The translations under genes were made by a program, and so were the position numbers. The notes under the pieces are model-generated. The model ran no database searches. It saw only the letters and a program-made list of their open reading frames with translations, and was not told where the DNA came from. A stretch of DNA of 33,659 nucleotides from Nitrospira sp. (GTDB taxonomy: Bacteria; Nitrospirota; Nitrospiria; Nitrospirales; Nitrospiraceae), in assembly GCA_029865225.1 (NCBI GenBank), contig JAOUHJ010000033.1:1-33659 (forward strand), in the 5' to 3' direction. Of the stretch, positions 21,029 through 33,428 are shown one piece after another. Each line of letters begins with the position of its first letter. The stretch's first letter is position 1.

Positions 21029-24000
21029 TTACTTCATCGCCGTTGGAACTGCTTGAGGCTGATCATCCGCATCCGCATGTTTGGAGCCAACTCCACCAGC
21101 GGTCAACGGCTGTAGCCTCTTATCCCCAGCCGGCAACACCCTCATATATCCCCACTGCCCAGACTGAGAGTACGGCAACCGCTGGTTGCTATACACATAG
21201 TCCCCAGGCATCCGGTACGGGCCACCGGCTGATGGGATAAAGGCATCGAGCGTTTCAGAACCTGAGAATTCTACGACACTGATCTGATCAGCTCCACGCA
21301 TGAACGGTTCGATCGGCCACTCATGTTTTTCGACGCTGAACATGCCGTTCTGTTCGTTATTGGCGCCGATGACATGGATGCGCACCGGATCACCGGCATG
21401 CGATTCAATGATCGGGGTCTCTGGATCTTCAGGCTTATCCGCCTTACAAGGCTGGAACATCTTACCCAGCGAACACCCCTGGTCTTCGCGGAACAGGTAC
21501 GGCTCGGACCGGTAGTTGATTCCGGTCAAGCCCGCGACGTTCTGCACATACGGCATGAAGCTCGTGCCGATGATGTTATCCTCGTCCTGGAAGAACAAGG
21601 CCACATCGCGGTAGTTCGGACGCATCTCGTTTCCAGGTATGGACCTGTCCACGATCACGTCGGCCGCCCAGGCATTCTTGTTCGACAGATCGACGCCCGT
21701 TTTGGGATCGCGGTACTTTGACCCCTTCGGACCCACCACGATCGCGCCGAACAGGCCGTTCCTCGGATTCGTCATCACATTGCCCCAGTCCCAGACGAGT
21801 GAGGTCGTCTCACCGTTGAACGGATCGGCATAGTACGTGTAGACCCGTTCGCCGCCTGGAGCAATCGTCTGATCACCAGGATTCTTCCCGACATTGGCCC
21901 CCATGGAATCCTTCGGATCGAAGGCGAGCCCGATCGCGGAGAATGAGGCTTTACTGTCCTTCATCTTGTTCTTCAGATTCACCTTGACGCAGTCCCCAAC
22001 GTTCACCCGAAGGGTCAACGGCATGGGTCTGGTATTCCCGGATACTTTCGCCACATCGTCTTCCAGCGCATAAATCTTTGCATCCGGATTGGCGAGCTGT
22101 ATCTTTCGCTCAAAATCGACCTCGATGGCTTCCGGTGCCTTCGGATTGAAGGTCATCGACGGATAGTCCATCGCGACGACGTTGAAGCTCTTGACCGGAG
22201 CATCGGCAGGACACACCGGCAAGGCCTCCGGAATCTCACCTTTGTTCGAGAATCCAGCAGGCAGTTTCTTCAGATCCTTTTGCTCCTTATCATAGACCCG
22301 CACAATGCCCCATCCACCTTCGGACAGCTTCGACGACCTGCCATTGAAGTGGATATAGTCGCCGGGTTGATGCCGTGGGCCACCGGCCTCCGGTACAACC
22401 AAGTCATACCGTTCTGCAATGCCCACATGGATGGAGTTCTTGCGGTTCGCATCGGGTGCATACCGCTCTGTCCAGAACGAATGGCCGGACAAGGTCCAGG
22501 TCATCGTTTCGTTCATCAGCGTATGCAACAGTCTGAACACCATCGTGTCACCCGTATACGCCCTCAACAGCGGCGTATAGGGATCCCCGTGAATTTGACT
22601 GTTGAAAATCTGAGACACATCCGGATTTGTCGCCAACCGTTGTGCGATCGGTCCGGCACGGAAGTTCAGCCCGCTTCCTGTGGTATGTGTCCCACCGTTC
22701 AAGAACGGCATCGGAGTCATGTAAATCTTTTCAGGCATGACGAAAGAGACGGTCTTCCCTGCCTCTAGCGCCACTTCGATCGGTTGCCCCGGCGGATTCC
22801 CGGCCGTGACGATGTTGACCGTGTGTGGCACCGTATCATGCACTTGAACCATAAGCTCACGGAAGCTGTTGTTCACACCATGGCCCACCGGCTCGTTGGT
22901 ATGAATATCCGCAATGGGACCGCTCCGGATCTGCTTCCCGGTCGTCGGATCATGATAGGTCGACCCCACCGGTTCAGCGATAAACGTCCCGAACCCACCA
23001 TGTGGCCAAGTCGTCGCACCGAACGCGTGATCATGCCAAAACACCGTCCCCACGTCCGCATCCACCCAGAACCGTTGACGGACAAACTCAACCGTCACGA
23101 TGTCCTTCGCCGGGTGATCGTGCTTCAACCCCTTTGATAGCGTGATTTGGTTGCCTTTGATCGCCTTAATACGTGAAATCTCGTTCCCTTTCACGTTATC
23201 GGCACCGACCATGATCAAGGTTCCCACGTGATACTGCTTGGCGTTCTTCACTGAAATGGTCTTGGACCCCTTCTTCACCGCAGAGGTCAAGACCGTGTTC
23301 ATCGGGACGGGAAGTCCTTTTTGGTTCTTCTTCTCCAGCATGGTGAAGGGACGAACCGACTGTTCATAGGAGAACCCGGTGATCACCCCATCCGATGCTT
23401 GGTTATCGAACTGCAGGAAATGCCAGTGCGTGTTGATCTTCGACGCCTGGAAGTTCGTGTAGTCGTCGTCGTCCCACTCACTGGTTAAGGTCCAATCCAC
23501 ACAATCATAGATGTTGCCACGCACGACCAACGGATACTTGAGGTCATCGTTGGCGCGAATGGCCGCTTCCTCTTCGTGCAACACGTAAATCAACCCATTC
23601 GGATCGACCACCGCAGGCTCCTTCCCTTGAGCCTTGGCAATCTTAATCGGCACCCTGATGAAATGGACGTTGAAGTTCTTCCGGCCTGCATTCTCCGGAC
23701 AGAGGCTCCAATTCCCCTGCTCTCCGGGCTTGGCTTGGTCGAGGCTCTCCTCACCATTGTCGTCGCGGCGGATCATCTCCAACCATGGCGCTCCGACGTG
23801 ATTCGGGGAGAACATGACACGCTTCCCAAAGTGCGGGGTGAGATGCGGCCAGGCTACCTTGCCTGTCAGCGGCTCGAACATGATCGGATGCCGCTTTCCA
23901 GGATGGGTCGACGTATATTTAGGATTCTTGACATCACTTTCCTTCTCACTCATGGCGCGATTACCGTCCCACACCCAATCCAACACGGTCGCGTCATAAG

Positions 24001-25864
24001 AAAGAATCTGGCCCTTCTCGTCATCCTTATGGCCAGGCTTACCGGGCGGTGGCAACTGCATCGCAACCCAGTCCTTGATCGTAATCGTGGCCGGGTTCCC
24101 CTTCCAATTGCTCTTGCCCTTCTCAATGATCTTGAACTGCGTCCCGAACCAATCCACTGTTTGGCCGATCAGCTTGTCTGATGAGATCGGCGCCTTGATG
24201 CGACCTTTCCGATCCGGAAGCTCTCGCAGATCCGGCATCACGTCATTTCGCATCTCACCCTGCTGGATCGTGTTGTACACGCGCCAATAGCCCCACATAC
24301 CGGACACATAGTGATGCGCCACATGGCAGTGGAAGAGGAAATCGCCAGCCAGCTGTTGGCAGAGACCGGACCCGCACTCGGTTTCCAGGTCCAAGGCCTC
24401 CGATGGGCCGATGACCTCGACGTCGACACGATCTGTCTTGTGACGGATCACCGGGTACTTCACCGGGCCGTTGACTGCCGTAGCCCAGAGGTTCATGTCA
24501 TCGATGGCCCGAGGACTCCTCGGCCAGCGAATCGACCCTCCATGCGGGTGATGGCTATGAAACACTTCCGACCCGCCATGGACAAGACGGAATTTTGCCG
24601 GGTCTCCGATATAGGAACGAGGGATGGTCGGAGCAGCGTCGCCGAAGGTATAGGAACTATAGCCCATCGACTCGTCCTCGAACCCAAAGTATTCGTGCTG
24701 CAGGTGCATGTTGTTGATGCCGAACGGCTCACTTCGGTAATTGATCGCGCGGCCGCCTGGACGATAGGTATCCGTCAACGGATCACGTTGAGGCAGGAAA
24801 TCGCCCTTCTTATTGAGAGGGCGGAAGGCTTCGTCCCCGACCTCATGGTAATACAAGACGAATTCACGAAAGTCAGGGCCGGTACCATTCTTGATCATAA
24901 CCTGCCAGCCGCTGGTCGCCGGAGTCGGATCACCACTTCCCAGCGCTTCCCAGTACGTGGACCCACGAGGCTCCACGACGAAGGACCCGAACATGCCCAT
25001 CACGGTGAGCTCACGATCGTTGCTGTAGGTATGGAACTGGCGCACCCCTTCTTGGGTGTTGGGATGGATATACCATTCCATTTCCACGGACTTGTCTTTG
25101 GTCGCCACGGCATCAGAATTGGTCGTGGTGGCCGCAGCACCGGTCTTGCTGATCACCATCGCCGAGCCATGAATGTGGAGGCTGACATCCTCGTCACCCT
25201 CCATCTTGTTGCTCAGCTTGATCTTGAGACAATCTCCCTGATTGGCACGGATCGTGAGCGGCTGAATCCACTGCGCTTGCACGCCAGGTAGGACGGCTCC
25301 TGGATCAAAGCCCTCCTTGTCCCGCGCTTCACGGTTTGCGGTTTCTTCGGCTCGAACCTTGTCGATATCTTCATCCAGCACATACATGTAGCCAGGATAA
25401 AAATCGAGCCACTGGTTGAGCGTGATCTCAACGTTGATCGCGGAGACATTGTACTGCTTCACGGGCGCAGTCGCTGGACACCGGCCTCCCCCGGTCGCGG
25501 CCACTGGTTCCACCCGAGGGTCGGACATGAGCAACATATCCTGGCCGCCGGCTCCATACTGGTGCATCATGGCCGAGGTGTTGTACATGCCGGTATTCAC
25601 CGCCTGTACCTGCGGATCCTTGGACATCTGGTCCATGATGCGCTGGTGTTGCTGCTCGACCATCGCAGCGCGATCGGCCTTTCCCGACATCGCGTCCTCG
25701 ACGATCGTCTGTCCCTTGAGCTGCTCCGCCCAACCCGGCAACTGGTGGTTCATTGCCACGGACGTTGATGGGGTTTCTGCAAATACGAGTGAACTCCCAA
25801 AGAGAGTCACACAGGCGGTGAGCCCAAGCATACGGGCACACACGGAGCGGGAATGTGAAAACAT
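21029..25864 (-). CDS. Giant exported multicopper oxidase, six-cupredoxin-domain type
   Basis: The protein has 1611 residues. ATG 25864 has a perfect AAGGAGG site. A signal peptide (residues ~1-35, ending SSLVFAET) is followed by three repeated modules of two cupredoxin domains, each opening with a 'CP...A..FNV' strand. Module 1 (~110-560) has LHIHG (~230), FHSHHPHGG and HCHVAHHYVSGMW (~513), a full type 1 Cys site with His and Met. Module 2 (~700-1170) has INTHWHFLQF (~811) and FWHDHAFGATTWPHG (~942), but its third motif is lost. Module 3 (~1180-1600) keeps the fold (VWDWGNVMTNPRNGLFGAIV) but lost all copper His. So one blue copper and one trinuclear site shared between modules are expected, as in ceruloplasmin-like and MnxG-like six-domain oxidases. 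The substrate is unknown. Confidence 0.85.
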   Translation of the reverse strand: MFSHSRSVCARMLGLTACVTLFGSSLVFAETPSTSVAMNHQLPGWAEQLKGQTIVEDAMSGKADRAAMVEQQHQRIMDQMSKDPQVQAVNTGMYNTSAMMHQYGAGGQDMLLMSDPRVEPVAATGGGRCPATAPVKQYNVSAINVEITLNQWLDFYPGYMYVLDEDIDKVRAEETANREARDKEGFDPGAVLPGVQAQWIQPLTIRANQGDCLKIKLSNKMEGDEDVSLHIHGSAMVISKTGAAATTTNSDAVATKDKSVEMEWYIHPNTQEGVRQFHTYSNDRELTVMGMFGSFVVEPRGSTYWEALGSGDPTPATSGWQVMIKNGTGPDFREFVLYYHEVGDEAFRPLNKKGDFLPQRDPLTDTYRPGGRAINYRSEPFGINNMHLQHEYFGFEDESMGYSSYTFGDAAPTIPRSYIGDPAKFRLVHGGSEVFHSHHPHGGSIRWPRSPRAIDDMNLWATAVNGPVKYPVIRHKTDRVDVEVIGPSEALDLETECGSGLCQQLAGDFLFHCHVAHHYVSGMWGYWRVYNTIQQGEMRNDVMPDLRELPDRKGRIKAPISSDKLIGQTVDWFGTQFKIIEKGKSNWKGNPATITIKDWVAMQLPPPGKPGHKDDEKGQILSYDATVLDWVWDGNRAMSEKESDVKNPKYTSTHPGKRHPIMFEPLTGKVAWPHLTPHFGKRVMFSPNHVGAPWLEMIRRDDNGEESLDQAKPGEQGNWSLCPENAGRKNFNVHFIRVPIKIAKAQGKEPAVVDPNGLIYVLHEEEAAIRANDDLKYPLVVRGNIYDCVDWTLTSEWDDDDYTNFQASKINTHWHFLQFDNQASDGVITGFSYEQSVRPFTMLEKKNQKGLPVPMNTVLTSAVKKGSKTISVKNAKQYHVGTLIMVGADNVKGNEISRIKAIKGNQITLSKGLKHDHPAKDIVTVEFVRQRFWVDADVGTVFWHDHAFGATTWPHGGFGTFIAEPVGSTYHDPTTGKQIRSGPIADIHTNEPVGHGVNNSFRELMVQVHDTVPHTVNIVTAGNPPGQPIEVALEAGKTVSFVMPEKIYMTPMPFLNGGTHTTGSGLNFRAGPIAQRLATNPDVSQIFNSQIHGDPYTPLLRAYTGDTMVFRLLHTLMNETMTWTLSGHSFWTERYAPDANRKNSIHVGIAERYDLVVPEAGGPRHQPGDYIHFNGRSSKLSEGGWGIVRVYDKEQKDLKKLPAGFSNKGEIPEALPVCPADAPVKSFNVVAMDYPSMTFNPKAPEAIEVDFERKIQLANPDAKIYALEDDVAKVSGNTRPMPLTLRVNVGDCVKVNLKNKMKDSKASFSAIGLAFDPKDSMGANVGKNPGDQTIAPGGERVYTYYADPFNGETTSLVWDWGNVMTNPRNGLFGAIVVGPKGSKYRDPKTGVDLSNKNAWAADVIVDRSIPGNEMRPNYRDVALFFQDEDNIIGTSFMPYVQNVAGLTGINYRSEPYLFREDQGCSLGKMFQPCKADKPEDPETPIIESHAGDPVRIHVIGANNEQNGMFSVEKHEWPIEPFMRGADQISVVEFSGSETLDAFIPSAGGPYRMPGDYVYSNQRLPYSQSGQWGYMRVLPAGDKRLQPLTAGGVGSKHADADDQPQAVPTAMK

Positions 25865-26147
25865 GGACCGGCCTCCTTGTCTTGTATTGAAAACCGACAA
25901 TTAAAATGTGCTGCCGATGGTCATCCTCACAGACTATCTGATCTCAGAGGCTTTCAAAAATCGATTACACTTGAAATCAATTCATTGAAGCGCTGCAACC
26001 GTACTGCACTCAACCTGCGTTGTCAATATCGGCCCAGACATTTTCCTGCATCATGATCACGTCAGCCAGTGCCTGTTCCGACACAGCCCTTGCGGCTGTT
26101 TGACCCCTTTTGTATTGATGGCATGAGCCCTCGTCTTCCTATCGAGA
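25865..26147. promoter_or_regulatory. Leader region of the oxidase gene
   Basis: About 280 bp of leader before the oxidase gene, downstream of the accessory gene at 26148. An AT-rich stretch near 25950-25990 contains ATCGATT and an imperfect dyad (TTCAAAAATCGATT ... AATCAATTCATTGAAG) that could be a regulator site. Near 26091-26107, ACAGCC/GGCTGT forms a small hairpin. I cannot name a sigma-70 promoter with confidence. Confidence 0.3.
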
Positions 26148-28636: not shown

Positions 28637-30250
28637 CTAGTCCTCCGGATGCGGACACGACTTAGGCGCACCCGACGGGTCGTAGTTGAGGCCCATCGCC
28701 GTAGACATGATCTCGCTCACATGCTGTGGGGCCGCATGACCGCGGCAGATGAAGCCATCGAGCACATCGGTGATGTCAAGCCCGTTTAGGCCACGATCAA
28801 CGTAGTTGGGGTTCGTGCCGCGCGCCCCTGAGCCGCCAAGATAGTAAATGAGTACATCGTTGAGGGCGAGCGCTGATGGCGGAGCGGAGGGACCGCCGCT
28901 GACCTTGTCAAACTGCCCGAACTCGCAGGTGGCGCCACAGGTAGCGGGGGTTTGGCCAAGGGGAATGAAGCGCGTCAGTTCCTCCGGCTCACCGTTGCCG
29001 CCGTCGGTCATATCATAGATGATCCGCTGGAACCAGCCAGCATTCGCCAAAGTATTGTCCCATGATACTGCCTGCGGAAAGCCGGGTGTGCCTCCGCCGG
29101 TGAGGCACTCGGCGTGTTGAGCGACGGTATCGATCCGCGGGGCCCAGTTGCTGCCGTTCCAACAGGCCATGCGCGCATTGATGTCGAGATTCTCCAATAG
29201 GCCTGTACCTGTAGTTGTGATCCAGCTTGTGTTCCGAATCAGGGCCGCCTGAACGTTGGCTAATCCTTCGCCGAAGCGGCCATAGCTGGGGTTCTGTCGC
29301 AGAAAGTGTCGTTGAAAATAGTGGGAGGTCTCATGGACGTGCGCGTGCCCGTCGAAGCCCAGATCCGAGCAGTCCCAGGGAATATGGATATAGCCAGGGT
29401 CAAGCCCTGGCAAGTAGAAGGCGAAGCTCAATATCGTCCCCCAATCGCCATCTTTGCACCCTATTTCGGCTGGCTTGAGACCCTTGGTATGCTCGACATT
29501 GATCTTGGGCAACTTACCCTGAGTGACGCCCGGCAGGCGCGCGTAGTAGGCGCGTGCCTGCTGCATGTTGTCCATGATGAAGAACCCGCGGGCGGCGTCG
29601 TTGCTCATGGGCACCACGACCGTCCCGAGGTTAAGCCCGCCCGTGGCATCCGCAATGTTGAAGGTCCGGGTGAAGCTATAGAGGCGGTAGTCCCTATTCT
29701 TGTTCGTGAGCTCACTCGTCGACGCAATGGGACCCTTGTCCCAACGGGCGACGCCCACCGGGTTGAACTCGGAGAGCGCCAGGACGGTGATCTCGGCCTG
29801 TGCACAGCCCACGGGAGTCCACTCGAACGAGAACCCCCCAGAACTGCTCGTCTCGCGGCGGATGTAGTGGCCGCAGGAGTCCTGCAGCACGACGATGGCG
29901 TTCGCAATGTTGCGCGTTTGCTTCGTCTCGGTGGCCTGAGCCTTCCAGGGCCACATTGGCGATGCCTGGGCGTTGATCAGAAGCTTGACCGGATATTCAA
30001 ATTTGAAGCGGCCCGATACTCGATGTGTGTGCTCAAACGGTGCTGGAGTGAAGTCAAGGTCGAGCGCGACCCCGGCCGCTGGGATTACCTCCCGCAGTAA
30101 TTGGATGTCCACAAACTCCGGCTCTTCGACCGGCCGTGCCTGAGATCGCTCTAGGGCCTGAGTCGACTGCTGGGCGGCTGCGAAGGCTGAAACACCGAAG
30201 GTCATTGCCAGCGCTGCTATCGTGATCATCACTTTCTTCATGTTCTTCAT
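28637..30250 (-). CDS. Secreted gluzincin-type metallopeptidase
   Basis: The protein has about 537 residues. ATG 30250 has a GAGAGGAA site. A signal peptide (KKVMITIAALAMTFGVSAFA) is followed by ~250 residues of beta-rich sequence (ALDLDFTPAPFEHTHRVSGR, IVVLQDSCGHYIRRETSSSG). The catalytic motif is GHAHVHETSHYFQRHF, with the HExxH zinc site (HETSH). FGEGLAN about 20 residues later supplies the third ligand Glu, as in gluzincins. Further residues hold several cysteines (CWNGSNW, CGATCEFGQF). The C-terminus is ISTAMGLNYDPSGAPKSCPH. It lies directly after the peptide-precursor array on the same strand; a role in the same locus is possible but unproven. The exact family is not recognised. Confidence 0.75.
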   Translation of the reverse strand: MKNMKKVMITIAALAMTFGVSAFAAAQQSTQALERSQARPVEEPEFVDIQLLREVIPAAGVALDLDFTPAPFEHTHRVSGRFKFEYPVKLLINAQASPMWPWKAQATETKQTRNIANAIVVLQDSCGHYIRRETSSSGGFSFEWTPVGCAQAEITVLALSEFNPVGVARWDKGPIASTSELTNKNRDYRLYSFTRTFNIADATGGLNLGTVVVPMSNDAARGFFIMDNMQQARAYYARLPGVTQGKLPKINVEHTKGLKPAEIGCKDGDWGTILSFAFYLPGLDPGYIHIPWDCSDLGFDGHAHVHETSHYFQRHFLRQNPSYGRFGEGLANVQAALIRNTSWITTTGTGLLENLDINARMACWNGSNWAPRIDTVAQHAECLTGGGTPGFPQAVSWDNTLANAGWFQRIIYDMTDGGNGEPEELTRFIPLGQTPATCGATCEFGQFDKVSGGPSAPPSALALNDVLIYYLGGSGARGTNPNYVDRGLNGLDITDVLDGFICRGHAAPQHVSEIMSTAMGLNYDPSGAPKSCPHPED

Positions 30251-30278
30251 GAACATTTCCTCTCGGTCAAGGGCGAAG

Positions 30279-30400
30279 TTACCGCAATTGCCCTGAGCCT
30301 GGTGGGCCATAGGAACATACAACGGCTACAGTAATGCCAGTATTGGCTTGGATTGCTCTTGTGTTACGCCTCACAGGATCAAATTGAACTGGCGTCTCAT
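30279..30400 (-). pseudogene. Third MRLP-type precursor peptide gene, one-base frameshift
   Basis: ATG 30400 lies 25 bp after the stop of the protease-tail relic, as in the other two copies. Read as is, it stops after MRRQFNLIL. Compared with copy 2 (ATGAGACTTCCAGTTCAG) one base is missing near the fourth codon (ATGAGACGCCAGTTCAA). Restoring it gives M-R-x-PVQFDPVRRNTRAIQANT then GITVAVVCSYGPPGSGQLR, which stops at 30279. The end VVCSYGPP recalls the 'CSYDG'-like ends of cyanobactin precursors. The ribosome site is also weakened to AAGAAGTGAAG. It could be decayed, or a sequencing error. Confidence 0.65.
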
Positions 30401-30425
30401 TCTTCACTTCTTGCGGGAACGTCAC

Positions 30426-30675
30426 CTATCGCACAAACGAAGATCGCTCCGGACTGACCATCGCCGATACTACTTCGCTCACATCAATACAGCACCACTA
30501 CACCTTTCTGGCCTGCTCAAAGACTTACTCGGGGTCATGGTGTCAAGCTCCATGTCCTCCTTCATGGCTTCTCCAAAAACCTCACTCTCTTGATACACAT
30601 TCGCACCAACTAAAGACTCCCGACCCTTTTGTCTTCCCCCCAGATCGGACTCCGTTCCACCTGAATAGCATCAAG
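30426..30675 (-). pseudogene. Decayed copy of the PatA-type protease C-terminus (relic between peptide genes 2 and 3)
   Basis: Pieces of the protease gene end lie here in order but broken. At 30643-30675 LDAIQVERSPI matches LDTIEVERSPI. At 30426-30604 GANVYQESEVFGEAMKEDME matches TNVYQVSEIFKEAIKDDMEL, and, after a deletion and two stops, VFEQARKV then WCCIDVSEVVSAM and RSSFVR match VFVQARKVYRCCVDVSDVV to the real end SWYVR. The stop at 30426 is 25 bp from the peptide-3 ATG. The first piece overlaps the stop codon of peptide gene 2. A short foreign spacer (30605-30642) splits it. Confidence 0.75.
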
Positions 30676-30904
30676 GATACGGATATGCATCTCCGACTGT
30701 TGGTCCAATTCCAATATCAAGTGGATTTGCACAGCAGGGACAACCGACCGGGGTAACACAAGAACAATGCGGAATACAGCCCCGTCTCTCGCCTACACTT
30801 CTTGTTATTCTAAACCTTCCGAATATTTGATAGATAATTCCAGTATTGAGCTTTGGTGCAAAGCTACTGCGTGTTATGCCGGATGCCTGAACTGGAAGTC
30901 TCAT
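30671..30904 (-). CDS. Second MRLP-type precursor peptide, Cys-rich core
   Basis: The predicted peptide has 77 residues and begins MRLPVQASGITRSSFAPKLN. An AGGAGGTGAGAA ribosome site precedes ATG 30904, the best in the array. The second half reads GERRGCIPHCSCVTPVGCPC then CANPLDIGIGPTVGDAYPYP: six Cys in 17 residues, no close relatives known to me. In a PatA-type system the Cys could become thiazolines or form disulfides. The stop codon lies inside a relic of the protease gene, so the natural C-terminus may have been changed by the rearrangement. It has no visible helix or signal peptide. Confidence 0.65.
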   Translation of the reverse strand: MRLPVQASGITRSSFAPKLNTGIIYQIFGRFRITRSVGERRGCIPHCSCVTPVGCPCCANPLDIGIGPTVGDAYPYP

Positions 30905-30929
30905 TTCTCACCTCCTGGCTGAACGTCTA

Positions 30930-31113
30930 CTATCGCACGAACCAAGACCGCACCGGACCGGCCATCACAAGCACCACATCACTCACATCAACACAGCATC
31001 GATGCACCTTTTTGGCCTACACAAAGACTTGCTTGAGGTTAAAGCATGTCAGCTTCATATTCCAGCAATCGGAGTTGGCGGCCGATTCACAAACATAGAT
31101 CGCACTCCGAGTT
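30930..31113 (-). pseudogene. Decayed copy of the PatA-type protease C-terminus (relic between peptide genes 1 and 2)
   Basis: The real protease ends ...CWDMKMTCFNPKQVFVQARK and then VYRCCVDVSDVV to RSWYVR. Here the sequence reads SDCWNMKLTCFNLKQVFV, a TAG stop, then AKKVHRCCVDVSDVVLVMAG and PVRSWFVR with a final stop at 30930. It begins near 31113 with CGGAGTGCGATC (real gene CGGAGTCCGATC). A ~14-bp insertion and a small deletion disturb the first part. The stop-to-ATG gap to the next peptide gene is 25 bp, against 27 in the intact copy. Confidence 0.8.
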
Positions 31114-31132
31114 GATGCGACAGTAGACAGCT

Positions 31133-31164
31133 AGGGTTGGCAACGAAAAGACGTTGCCCACCCT
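31133..31164. terminator. Hairpin downstream of the first precursor peptide gene
   Basis: The arms AGGGTTGGCAACG and CGTTGCCCACCCT pair at 12 of 13 positions around a 6-base loop. On the minus strand it lies 54 bp after the stop of peptide gene 1 (31218). There is no T-run, so termination is uncertain. Confidence 0.45.
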
Positions 31165-31217
31165 GCCTCTCTCGAACGATTTGCTTCGTACCTCAGCGTA
31201 TCCTACGGCCCTTAAGA

Positions 31218-31403
31218 CTAATCCTCGACTATTTGTTGTCTTCTGATAGTACCATTTCGTCTATACCACGTAGTAACAGTTCTTGCTTCTACTGGTTCTG
31301 GTTCCTCGACTGCAATAAGCCGTTGCGGATAGACTCCCTCGCTCGACCCAAACGATAATGCACTTTTTCTTCCAACCGGTTGACATTGATTCGGCAATCT
31401 CAT
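31218..31403 (-). CDS. First MRLP-type precursor peptide
   Basis: The predicted peptide has 61 residues: MRLPNQCQPVGRKSALSFGS then SEGVYPQRLIAVEEPEPVEA and RTVTTWYRRNGTIRRQQIVE ending in D. A TAGGAGGTGAGCC ribosome site precedes ATG 31403, 27 bp after the protease stop. The MRLP start and position are shared with the other two peptides, but the rest differs. It has a single Cys. The acidic middle followed by a short basic end resembles a leader followed by a core. No signal peptide or membrane helix is seen. Confidence 0.65.
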   Translation of the reverse strand: MRLPNQCQPVGRKSALSFGSSEGVYPQRLIAVEEPEPVEARTVTTWYRRNGTIRRQQIVED

Positions 31404-31430
31404 GGCTCACCTCCTATAGTTAATGTGTAT

Positions 31431-33428
31431 TCATCGCACATACCACGACCGCATCGGACCAACCATCACAGGCACCACATCGCTCACATCAACACAGCAC
31501 CGATACACCTTTCTGGCCTGCACAAAGACTTGCTTGGGGTTAAAGCATGTCATCTTCATATCCCAGCAATCGGAGTCTGGGCGGCCGATCGGACTCCGTT
31601 CCACTTCAATCGTATCGAGCTCCATATCATCCTTTATGGCTTCTTTAAAAATCTCACTAACTTGATACACATTCGTGGCTGCATAGTTGATTGCTCGGTG
31701 TTGCGGCGTCACACCTAGATTCCGGATTTCCTCATACACACGACGGAGAAAGTTGGCAATGGCTTGTGCTTTCACGCCGTACTCATCTTTCTCCTTTTGC
31801 GGCGCTTTATCTTGAGGCGGAGTCCCACAAATAGTCTGAACGAGCGCCGTGGTGTTCCAACTGTACATGCCGCGCAAAGCCGGATAAATGATCGGCACGA
31901 CCTGACCAGTGAATAGCCTGGCGTTTGCGGCGATATACCCAGGAATCGAGACTCGCTCGACTTCGCCCTTGGCCTGGTCTCCAAGAAATTCACACAGCCG
32001 CTGACAGATCGCGCTTGCAAATCCCCCCTGAGCTTGTACGGCATAGATCGGCGTAGCATCCAAATTGAGAGTCCAAAGAATTGCAGCCGCGTCCCACGGA
32101 TTGTCTTTGAGATAGGTCAAGAGCTGGAGAGGGTCGTGGGGATTAGCCGGCTGCTTCATGTGCTGCATAATGGAATCGCGGCGCGCCTCGGTGCCAAAAT
32201 CATAGCCGAGTTGTCCGAAAGCGAATACGAGTTGCTTTGGCGCCGTACCTCCACACTCACAAGCAGCGGCTTTAACATTGCTGGGACTTATTGACCCCTG
32301 CGGGGCCAGGACTTCTTCCTTCTGCGTACTCATAGTGCTTCCCGAAGGTTGTTTTTCCATAGCCGTATCCACTGCCCCATTTTCAAAAGACGCGGCTTGC
32401 ACCTGCGCTGAAGGCGGTTGCCGTGCAGTCGCCATCTCAGTAGAACTTGAGTCCTTCTCGTCCGGACTGGTTGCCGTTGTACTGTTTGTTTCCGACATGA
32501 CGTTCTTTCCTCCTCTGATTTGCCGCATGGCTCCTTTGATATTTAGCCGACCAGCAAGGAGTCGCCGACAATCTGATACTGGTTGTTCATCACATCCTAT
32601 TGCAGTCTTCAGAATCGCTGCTCGTACGGCCTGAGCATCAGGTTTTTGCCCAAGCTTGAGCTGTAGGCTCAACATCAGTGCTGCAACTCCCGAAACTATA
32701 GGTGTCGCATAACTGGTCCCGCTGGTGGCACCAACACCTCCTCCGGGAATAGCCCCTTGAATATTTTCTCCAAGTGCCAAGACGCCTTGTGCCTGATATG
32801 GCTTCCCCCAATTACTGAAACCCATTGGTTCACCTTGCGCATTCATCGCTCCCACAGCCAATACCGATGGCAACGCACCTGGAATATGCAGACACTCGCA
32901 ACCTTCGTTCCCCGCTGCGGCCACGATGAGAACGCCACGGTTCGCACAATCCTTGATCGCATCAGCGAGTAGAGGGTGAGCCGTGCCAGAGGGGGTAAGC
33001 TCACCACCGCTGATGTTGACAATGTGCGCGCCCGCTTGAACAGCTTGACCAATCGCCCGTGCAAGGTCGACCTGTGAACAAGGAGCAATAGAGCCCGCAT
33101 CCCCATCCTTGAAGACCGGGATAACCACGCCTCTGCAACGAGGCGCAATGCCCTTAACAGGTCCATCATGATGTCCAAAGATGACACTGGCGATATGGGT
33201 ACCATGCTGTGAGGCTGGGCCATGATCTGCTTCTCCCGAAACTAGCGTCTCAATTCGAGTAAGATCAGCGCGAGCGAGGCTCGTATGCGACTGGTCAACT
33301 GAACCATCGAGAATCGCAATGCAAATGCTGGAATCACCTAACGTTTCCCCCCAGAGCTCATTGAGGCCGGGAATTTCCATGTTCGCAATGGGTGACTGCT
33401 GAATAGGCTTGCTCCCAACCGACTGCAC
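31431..33428 (-). CDS. PatA/PatG-family subtilisin-like maturation protease
   Basis: The protein has 665 residues. The GTG start at 33428 follows an AAGGAG site. A subtilase (S8) domain fills residues ~20-280: Asp41 (CIAILDG), His75 (QHGTHIAS), Asn174 (AAAGNEG) and Ser239 (ATSGTSYATP). A Ser/Thr/Gln-rich linker (~310-375) follows. From ~385 to the end is the C-terminal domain of the PatA/PatG cyanobactin maturation proteases: FAFGQLGYDFGTEARRDSIM, NPHDPLQLLTYLKDNPWDAA, WTLNLDATPIYAV, GEVERVSIPGYIA and RPDSDCWDMKMTC to RSWYVR. In cyanobactin pathways such proteases cut precursor peptides. No signal peptide is seen. It precedes a peptide gene by 27 bp. Confidence 0.88.
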   Translation of the reverse strand: MQSVGSKPIQQSPIANMEIPGLNELWGETLGDSSICIAILDGSVDQSHTSLARADLTRIETLVSGEADHGPASQHGTHIASVIFGHHDGPVKGIAPRCRGVVIPVFKDGDAGSIAPCSQVDLARAIGQAVQAGAHIVNISGGELTPSGTAHPLLADAIKDCANRGVLIVAAAGNEGCECLHIPGALPSVLAVGAMNAQGEPMGFSNWGKPYQAQGVLALGENIQGAIPGGGVGATSGTSYATPIVSGVAALMLSLQLKLGQKPDAQAVRAAILKTAIGCDEQPVSDCRRLLAGRLNIKGAMRQIRGGKNVMSETNSTTATSPDEKDSSSTEMATARQPPSAQVQAASFENGAVDTAMEKQPSGSTMSTQKEEVLAPQGSISPSNVKAAACECGGTAPKQLVFAFGQLGYDFGTEARRDSIMQHMKQPANPHDPLQLLTYLKDNPWDAAAILWTLNLDATPIYAVQAQGGFASAICQRLCEFLGDQAKGEVERVSIPGYIAANARLFTGQVVPIIYPALRGMYSWNTTALVQTICGTPPQDKAPQKEKDEYGVKAQAIANFLRRVYEEIRNLGVTPQHRAINYAATNVYQVSEIFKEAIKDDMELDTIEVERSPIGRPDSDCWDMKMTCFNPKQVFVQARKVYRCCVDVSDVVPVMVGPMRSWYVR

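Follow-up and report, generated by a model that had tools for sequence, protein, structure and literature searches.

The stretch of DNA analysed here, called the window, is the whole of contig JAOUHJ010000033.1 of Nitrospira sp. (33,659 nucleotides; contig C113 of genome G000, which has 4.1 Mb and is 99.98% complete). Its minus strand carries a gene for a PatA-type subtilisin-like protease and, downstream of it, short peptide genes, each preceded by the protease 3' end, either intact or as a decayed copy. It is likely that the locus is a minimal cyanobactin-like precursor/protease system that works without a YcaO heterocyclase.

The protease belongs to a family already named in databases. An earlier note on this DNA had called it a PatA-type protease of the PatA/PatG family, and it is indeed of PatA rather than PatG type. 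The product presents an S8 subtilase domain and the PatG_D and PatG_C parts of the PatG domain of unknown function (DUF), and matches the model TIGR03895 with 712 bits against a curated cut-off of 421; it thus shows every mark of a cyanobactin maturation protease (TIGR03895 cut-off, subtilase, PatG DUF). In the Protein Data Bank (PDB) the best relative was the N-terminal cyanobactin protease 4h6w (E 3e-102; 347 bits, versus 181 bits for the PatG macrocyclase 4h6x), the PatA-type structures 4h6w and 3zxx both being closer than the macrocyclase, and the PatG DUF structure 4uvq matched residues 395-663. A candidate catalytic triad, D41/H75/S239, was read from motifs and is invariant among the Nitrospira orthologs. 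Orthologs at 83% and 77% occur in just two other genomes among 396 Nitrospirota sampled, and a near ortholog contig was found in a Nitrospira metagenome-assembled genome (L050). The protease tree placed 16 non-cluster proteases together on one side of a branch (support 86/84), while cluster PatA (96/96) and PatG sequences fell outside. The Nitrospira sequences adjoin Calothrix and Acaryochloris, which suggests transfer; several branches of this tree are long and its root is arbitrary.

Eighteen non-cluster proteases, from Nitrospira, Nitrospinia, Terriglobia, Shewanella, Streptomyces and cyanobacteria, define the set of loci that was compared, selected on the protease alone and not on the peptides. 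Within 2.5 kb downstream, 34 open reading frames (ORFs) with the leader motif were found, where flanking and control DNA predict 1.1; the 34 are not independent, as some share loci or phyla, and one of them (LPFQREGAVR, locus L037) is probably due to chance. These ORFs start with [LIM]PxQxxPVxR, as true cyanobactin leaders do; the strict motif is present in 17 of the 18 loci, and the remaining one, Acaryochloris, has the looser MRIPNQSIGQIR. Leaders are exemplified by MSLPKQSKPVMR in Nitrospinia, MKIPKQNKPLIR in Shewanella, MRLPIQAEPVIR in Terriglobia, LHMPQQAPPVDR in the tandem precursors of Streptomyces and MNLPKQSAPVER in a cyanobacterium. Up to six precursor copies occur at one locus, and the leader is conserved at the same location in at least five phyla. 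The earlier note had named a lack of relatives near PatA-type proteases and of a conserved start as what would speak against its proposal, and both relatives and conserved start were found. A search of plasmids with a Scytonematopsis precursor as query returned no match. As a separate observation, two Streptomyces plasmids carry tandem precursors (L128:10453-10988, L129:9439-10611), whose predicted cores, for example NLFDIIKSLF and FFPLLAGLASLLF, resemble short amphipathic membrane-active peptides.

The window peptides present the N-terminal leader LPxQxxPVxR that characterizes cyanobactin precursors, as LPNQCQPVGR and LPVQASGITR. The earlier note described three peptide genes placed 25-27 bp past the protease tail or a copy of it; the coordinates, the gaps from protease or relic stop to ATG (27, 25 and 25 bp) and the ribosome sites of the first two hold, and the third gene is broken. 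Its frame from the ATG at 30400 meets a stop after nine codons, and an ORF from an alternative GTG retains a degenerate leader, PVQFDPVRR, and a site-like NTGIT. The shared start and differing bodies described in that note are also borne out: similarity among the three cassettes spans tail, spacer and leader and reaches as far as the putative cleavage site, with leader z values of 3.6, 6.2 and 3.1, while the cores are dissimilar (z about -1 to -0.1). Conserved leader, variable core and an adjoining cognate processing enzyme are the general features of a ribosomally synthesized and post-translationally modified peptide (RiPP) in the broad sense, and all three are present here. No model of the Pfam and NCBIfam libraries covers the window peptides, which matched no cyanobactin precursor model.

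The cleavage site of PatA-like enzymes follows G(L/V)E(A/P)S (PMC10885120). This signature played no part in selecting the precursors, and the pattern G[VIL]x[PA][SQAD] was present in 17 of the 34 non-cluster precursors versus 0.48 in shuffled sequences (maximum 4), almost always 18-24 and mostly 19-22 residues past the leader proline. Locus L162 has the exact GVEAS, and the predicted sites in the window read GVYPQ and GIIYQ. Genuine cyanobactin precursors that match TIGR03678 (L165 and L175) share the leader, MDKKNLLPNQGAPVIR...LAELSEEALGGNGLEAS. In L175 the GLEAS site stands at a spacing of 30, the extra length being LAELSEEALG, and the heterocyclase recognition element LAELSEEAL is missing from all non-cluster precursors. 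For three precursors from separate loci the single NCBIfam match was TIGR04446, covering leader and site, with E about 0.05 each.

The unit proposed in the earlier note as duplicated, the end of the protease with the spacer and the start of the precursor, is real and was seen again at other loci. Relic 1 matches the last 50 residues of the protease at 74% identity (31082-30933, E 1e-20), and relic 2 is 61% identical to the tail at 30536-30429 (E 4e-6), with an extra piece at 30613-30503. Local DNA alignments of the tail copies scored 223 and 116 (+69, +41) versus a maximum of 29.5 among 100 shuffles. Differences between copy and gene at codon positions 1/2/3 are 8/6/6 for relic 1 and 8/5/8 for relic 2, even over the positions, unlike those between orthologs (3/2/13, mostly third position); the copies are therefore free of coding constraint. 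Their decay is neutral, in contrast to the selection that acts on the intact gene, and their stops and deletions agree with the relic status given to them before. By shared derived bases (6 of 8 informative sites), copy 2 is closer to the window gene than the G102 ortholog is, so the duplication looks local. Its tail is 87% identical to the gene, only about half of the leader positions are identical and the cores are unrelated; replacement of the core, or change at more than the neutral rate, is therefore probable. A tail relic in Calothrix (L044) ends about 37 bp ahead of its second precursor (DNA score 96 versus 29). In a cyanobacterium (L172) the leader of the first precursor passes straight into a protease-tail relic and then into a second leader, exactly the residue expected from tandem duplication of tail, spacer and leader. 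The search beside the fused protease of G200 gave only a chance-level match.

Alternatively, the tail copies could be functional cis-elements, for translational coupling or as promoters, kept upstream of each precursor. Their near-constant spacing (25-27 bp in the window, 24-31 bp at several of the split-system precursors described below) and the relics of that system that are still open frames (L103, L100) fit this explanation, but we consider it unlikely, given the stops, deletions and even codon-position changes of the window copies and the many precursors at other loci that have no detectable tail copy.

A related split system also occurs in Nitrospira, in which an S8 protease gene and a separate PatG_D/PatG_C gene are followed by up to about eight precursors. 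Their common leader is MxMPGFTAExSLYxTxxxY, and a (V/I)(V/I)PQ-like site frequently follows further on. Two examples were scanned and had no match to any family model. The two systems are alike in that their enzyme parts are homologous, their precursors stand in tandem, relic gene ends lie ahead of precursors and one core is common to both, but in the split system protease and DUF are separate genes and the leader sequence is unrelated. Relics of the DUF gene lie 24-31 bp ahead of precursors in G200:C1 and G289:C9, and others were found in G000:C145 and G245. Genes whose products look, on visual inspection, like poly-gamma-glutamate hydrolases stand among the MPGFTAE precursors (L100:9454-10344, minus strand; L103:6262-7176; L097:10168-10938), the one in L103 directly preceding a DUF-gene relic. 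In another arrangement, the ORF past the PatA gene in L048 (12092-13765) fuses a methyltransferase-like N-terminus to PatG_D/PatG_C; the DUF is thus not limited to one type of enzyme.

The shared core is that of window precursor 2, CIPHCSCVTPVGCPCC, which aligns with the core CIPGCICVSPIDCPCC of an MPGFTAE-leader precursor on contig C145 (score 83 versus a maximum of 53 in 5,000 shuffles). A degenerate DNA pattern of this core hit just these two sites in the 396 Nitrospirota genomes, and a reversed control hit none. One core under two leaders in one genome, and in no other of the Nitrospirota sampled, suggests that cores were exchanged between the two systems. Similarly, precursors of Shewanella (L046:9982-10173) and Nostoc (L130:8450-8641) have the same leader and nearly the same six-Cys core, GxNTQCCGSxCxTxYCxIGLSSKGC (score 156 versus a shuffle maximum of 64), which suggests a selected product transferred between phyla. 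Somewhat tentatively, the protease 3' end, spacer and leader might act as a portable homology arm, where recombination grows arrays and swaps cores between paralogs and between the two leader/enzyme systems of one genome.

These cores also bear on another reading, in which the short proteins inhibit the protease or help it to fold instead of yielding a released peptide. Small partner proteins are common among subtilases, and the short proteins directly adjoin a subtilase; the explanation is nevertheless quite improbable, since the bodies of paralogs are unrelated (core z about 0) with up to six copies per locus, the signature keeps a fixed spacing, and genuine cyanobactin precursors use the same leader.

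Comparison with the azoline cyanobactins (patellamide PatA/PatD/PatE/PatG) showed likeness in the PatA-type protease with its C-terminal DUF, in the precursor start LPxQxxPVxR and in a putative N-terminal cleavage signature that resembles G(L/V)E(A/P)S (PMC10885120). On the other hand, the YcaO heterocyclase with its recognition element of about 10 residues, and the PatG oxidase/macrocyclase with its follower recognition sequence, are found there and not in the system described here, which has one core of about 30-90 residues per precursor and hosts beyond cyanobacteria. Anacyclamide/piricyclamide-type pathways still have macrocyclase and prenyltransferase, neither of which was seen in the Nitrospira system. 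Their model TIGR04446 (PirE) is the sole family model that matches several precursors, weakly and under its cut-off. A normal cyanobactin pathway with heterocyclase and macrocyclase encoded elsewhere in the genome would account for the leader and protease, and some relatives do carry YcaO genes elsewhere; yet no YcaO was found in G000, G102, G200 or four relatives, which refutes YcaO heterocyclisation, and with LAELSEEAL lacking in all precursors this alternative is very improbable. The only full PatG_C proteins in G000 are the window protease and the split-system DUF, neither a PatG macrocyclase. Inspection revealed no AYD(G)/AYDG-like precursor ending, and no macrocyclase or other tailoring gene was a conserved neighbour at the loci examined. 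The least credible explanation, spurious ORFs beside a decaying gene end whose duplication is the only biology, has on its side the broken third ORF and the absence of Pfam/NCBIfam matches, and is contradicted by the leader in at least five phyla, the ribosome sites and the Shewanella/Nostoc core.

Taken as a YcaO-free precursor/protease system, the locus would operate as follows. The PatA-type protease, probably in the cytoplasm, would act on the short neighbouring precursors. It would recognise their LPxQxxPVxR leader, perhaps by means of PatG_D/PatG_C, and cut about 20 residues past it, after a G(V/I)x(P/A)(S/Q) signature. The cut would free a hypervariable core, often Cys-rich or amphipathic; cores of this kind would suit peptides with an antimicrobial or metal-binding role. 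The precursors are presumably expressed, and their products may be active. New precursors would be born from local duplication of the protease 3' end, spacer and leader, after which the protease copies would decay and the cores be replaced or exchanged, even with the sister system of the other leader. Several points weigh against this mechanism. Half of the precursors fit the signature only in a relaxed form, as GIIYQ of window precursor 2, or not at all; the motif definitions were set after some members had been seen; and no exporter or immunity gene is conserved near the loci examined. In addition, nuclear magnetic resonance (NMR) showed no binding of the PatG DUF on its own to PatE' or to heterocyclised PatE' (PMC4259220), which speaks against recognition of the leader by this domain, at least in PatG; that work covered the PatG DUF and not the PatA-type domain.

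In the open-access literature we found no description of these precursors, of the YcaO-free association, of the tail cassettes or of the MPGFTAE split system, and in the databases no model for the precursors. The cyanobactin leader and its N-terminal protease occur widely as a pair that lacks both heterocyclase and macrocyclase. At least six bacterial groups have this two-part system, from which cyanobactins may have been elaborated. Precursor diversification is caught here in the act: decaying gene ends mark each duplication event, and a single core is found behind two different leaders. Copying of tail, spacer and leader apparently lets new peptide products come under an existing processing signal, with none of the other cyanobactin enzymes. 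Pairs of leader and DUF can also be compared between fused and split systems, which offers a way to address a long-standing question, the role of the PatG DUF.

Table 1. Positions of the protease, precursor and relic features in the window, and of the split-system loci
Feature	Position	Strand	Remark
PatA-type subtilisin-like protease with C-terminal PatG_D/PatG_C, 665 aa	31431..33428	-	TIGR03895, Pfam and PDB matches
Peptidase S8 domain, residues 33-276	32601..33332	-	Pfam
PatG_D, part of C-terminal DUF, residues 401-498	31935..32228	-	Pfam
PatG_C, other part of C-terminal domain	31443..31778	-	Pfam; 3' end is the piece copied downstream
AGGAGG ribosome-binding site, precursor 1	31410..31415	-	
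Precursor 1, 61 aa (MRLPNQ...)	31218..31403	-	leader, predicted site GVYPQ and 34-residue Cys-free core
Leader motif LPNQCQPVGR, precursor 1	31368..31397	-	motif common to 17 other loci
Predicted PatA-type cleavage signature GVYPQ, precursor 1	31323..31337	-	
Relic 1 of protease 3' end	30930..31086	-	in-frame TAG; ends 25 bp before precursor 2
AGGAGG ribosome-binding site, precursor 2	30911..30916	-	
Precursor 2, 77 aa (MRLPVQ...)	30671..30904	-	leader LPVQASGITR, predicted site GIIYQ and Cys-rich core
Precursor 2 core motif CIPHCSCVTPVGCPCC (CIPxCxCVxPxxCPCC)	30731..30778	-	matches CIPGCICVSPIDCPCC on contig C145
Relic 2 of protease 3' end	30426..30675	-	pieces with deletions and two in-frame stops; ends 25 bp before third cassette
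Third precursor, broken	30279..30425	-	48-aa ORF from alternative GTG only
Split system in G000	contig C145:126590-133151 (L114:6590-13151)		
Further split-system loci	L096-L100, L102-L106, L108		

Upstream of the G200 protease, two adjacent genes for B12-binding radical SAM proteins stand behind a gene for a 184-residue Gly/Pro/Trp-rich protein, MATEDSIKRLEERLTRLEANL...GYRPPSWGGWGY (L038:1577-5869; G200:C13:11576-15868). A role of the pair as tailoring partner was weighed and discarded, since the genome of the window has no homolog; together these genes look like a separate candidate RiPP locus. In the window, a secreted-looking protein with a HETSH motif (28637-30322, minus strand) begins directly past the third cassette and had no match in family scans. 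Further along the same strand, positions 21029-25900 encode a 1623-residue multicopper oxidase, distantly MnxG-like (manganese oxidase) at 135 bits, far under the family cut-off, and the G102 contig has an ORF of 1642 aa (L037:1966-6894) of comparable length and place.

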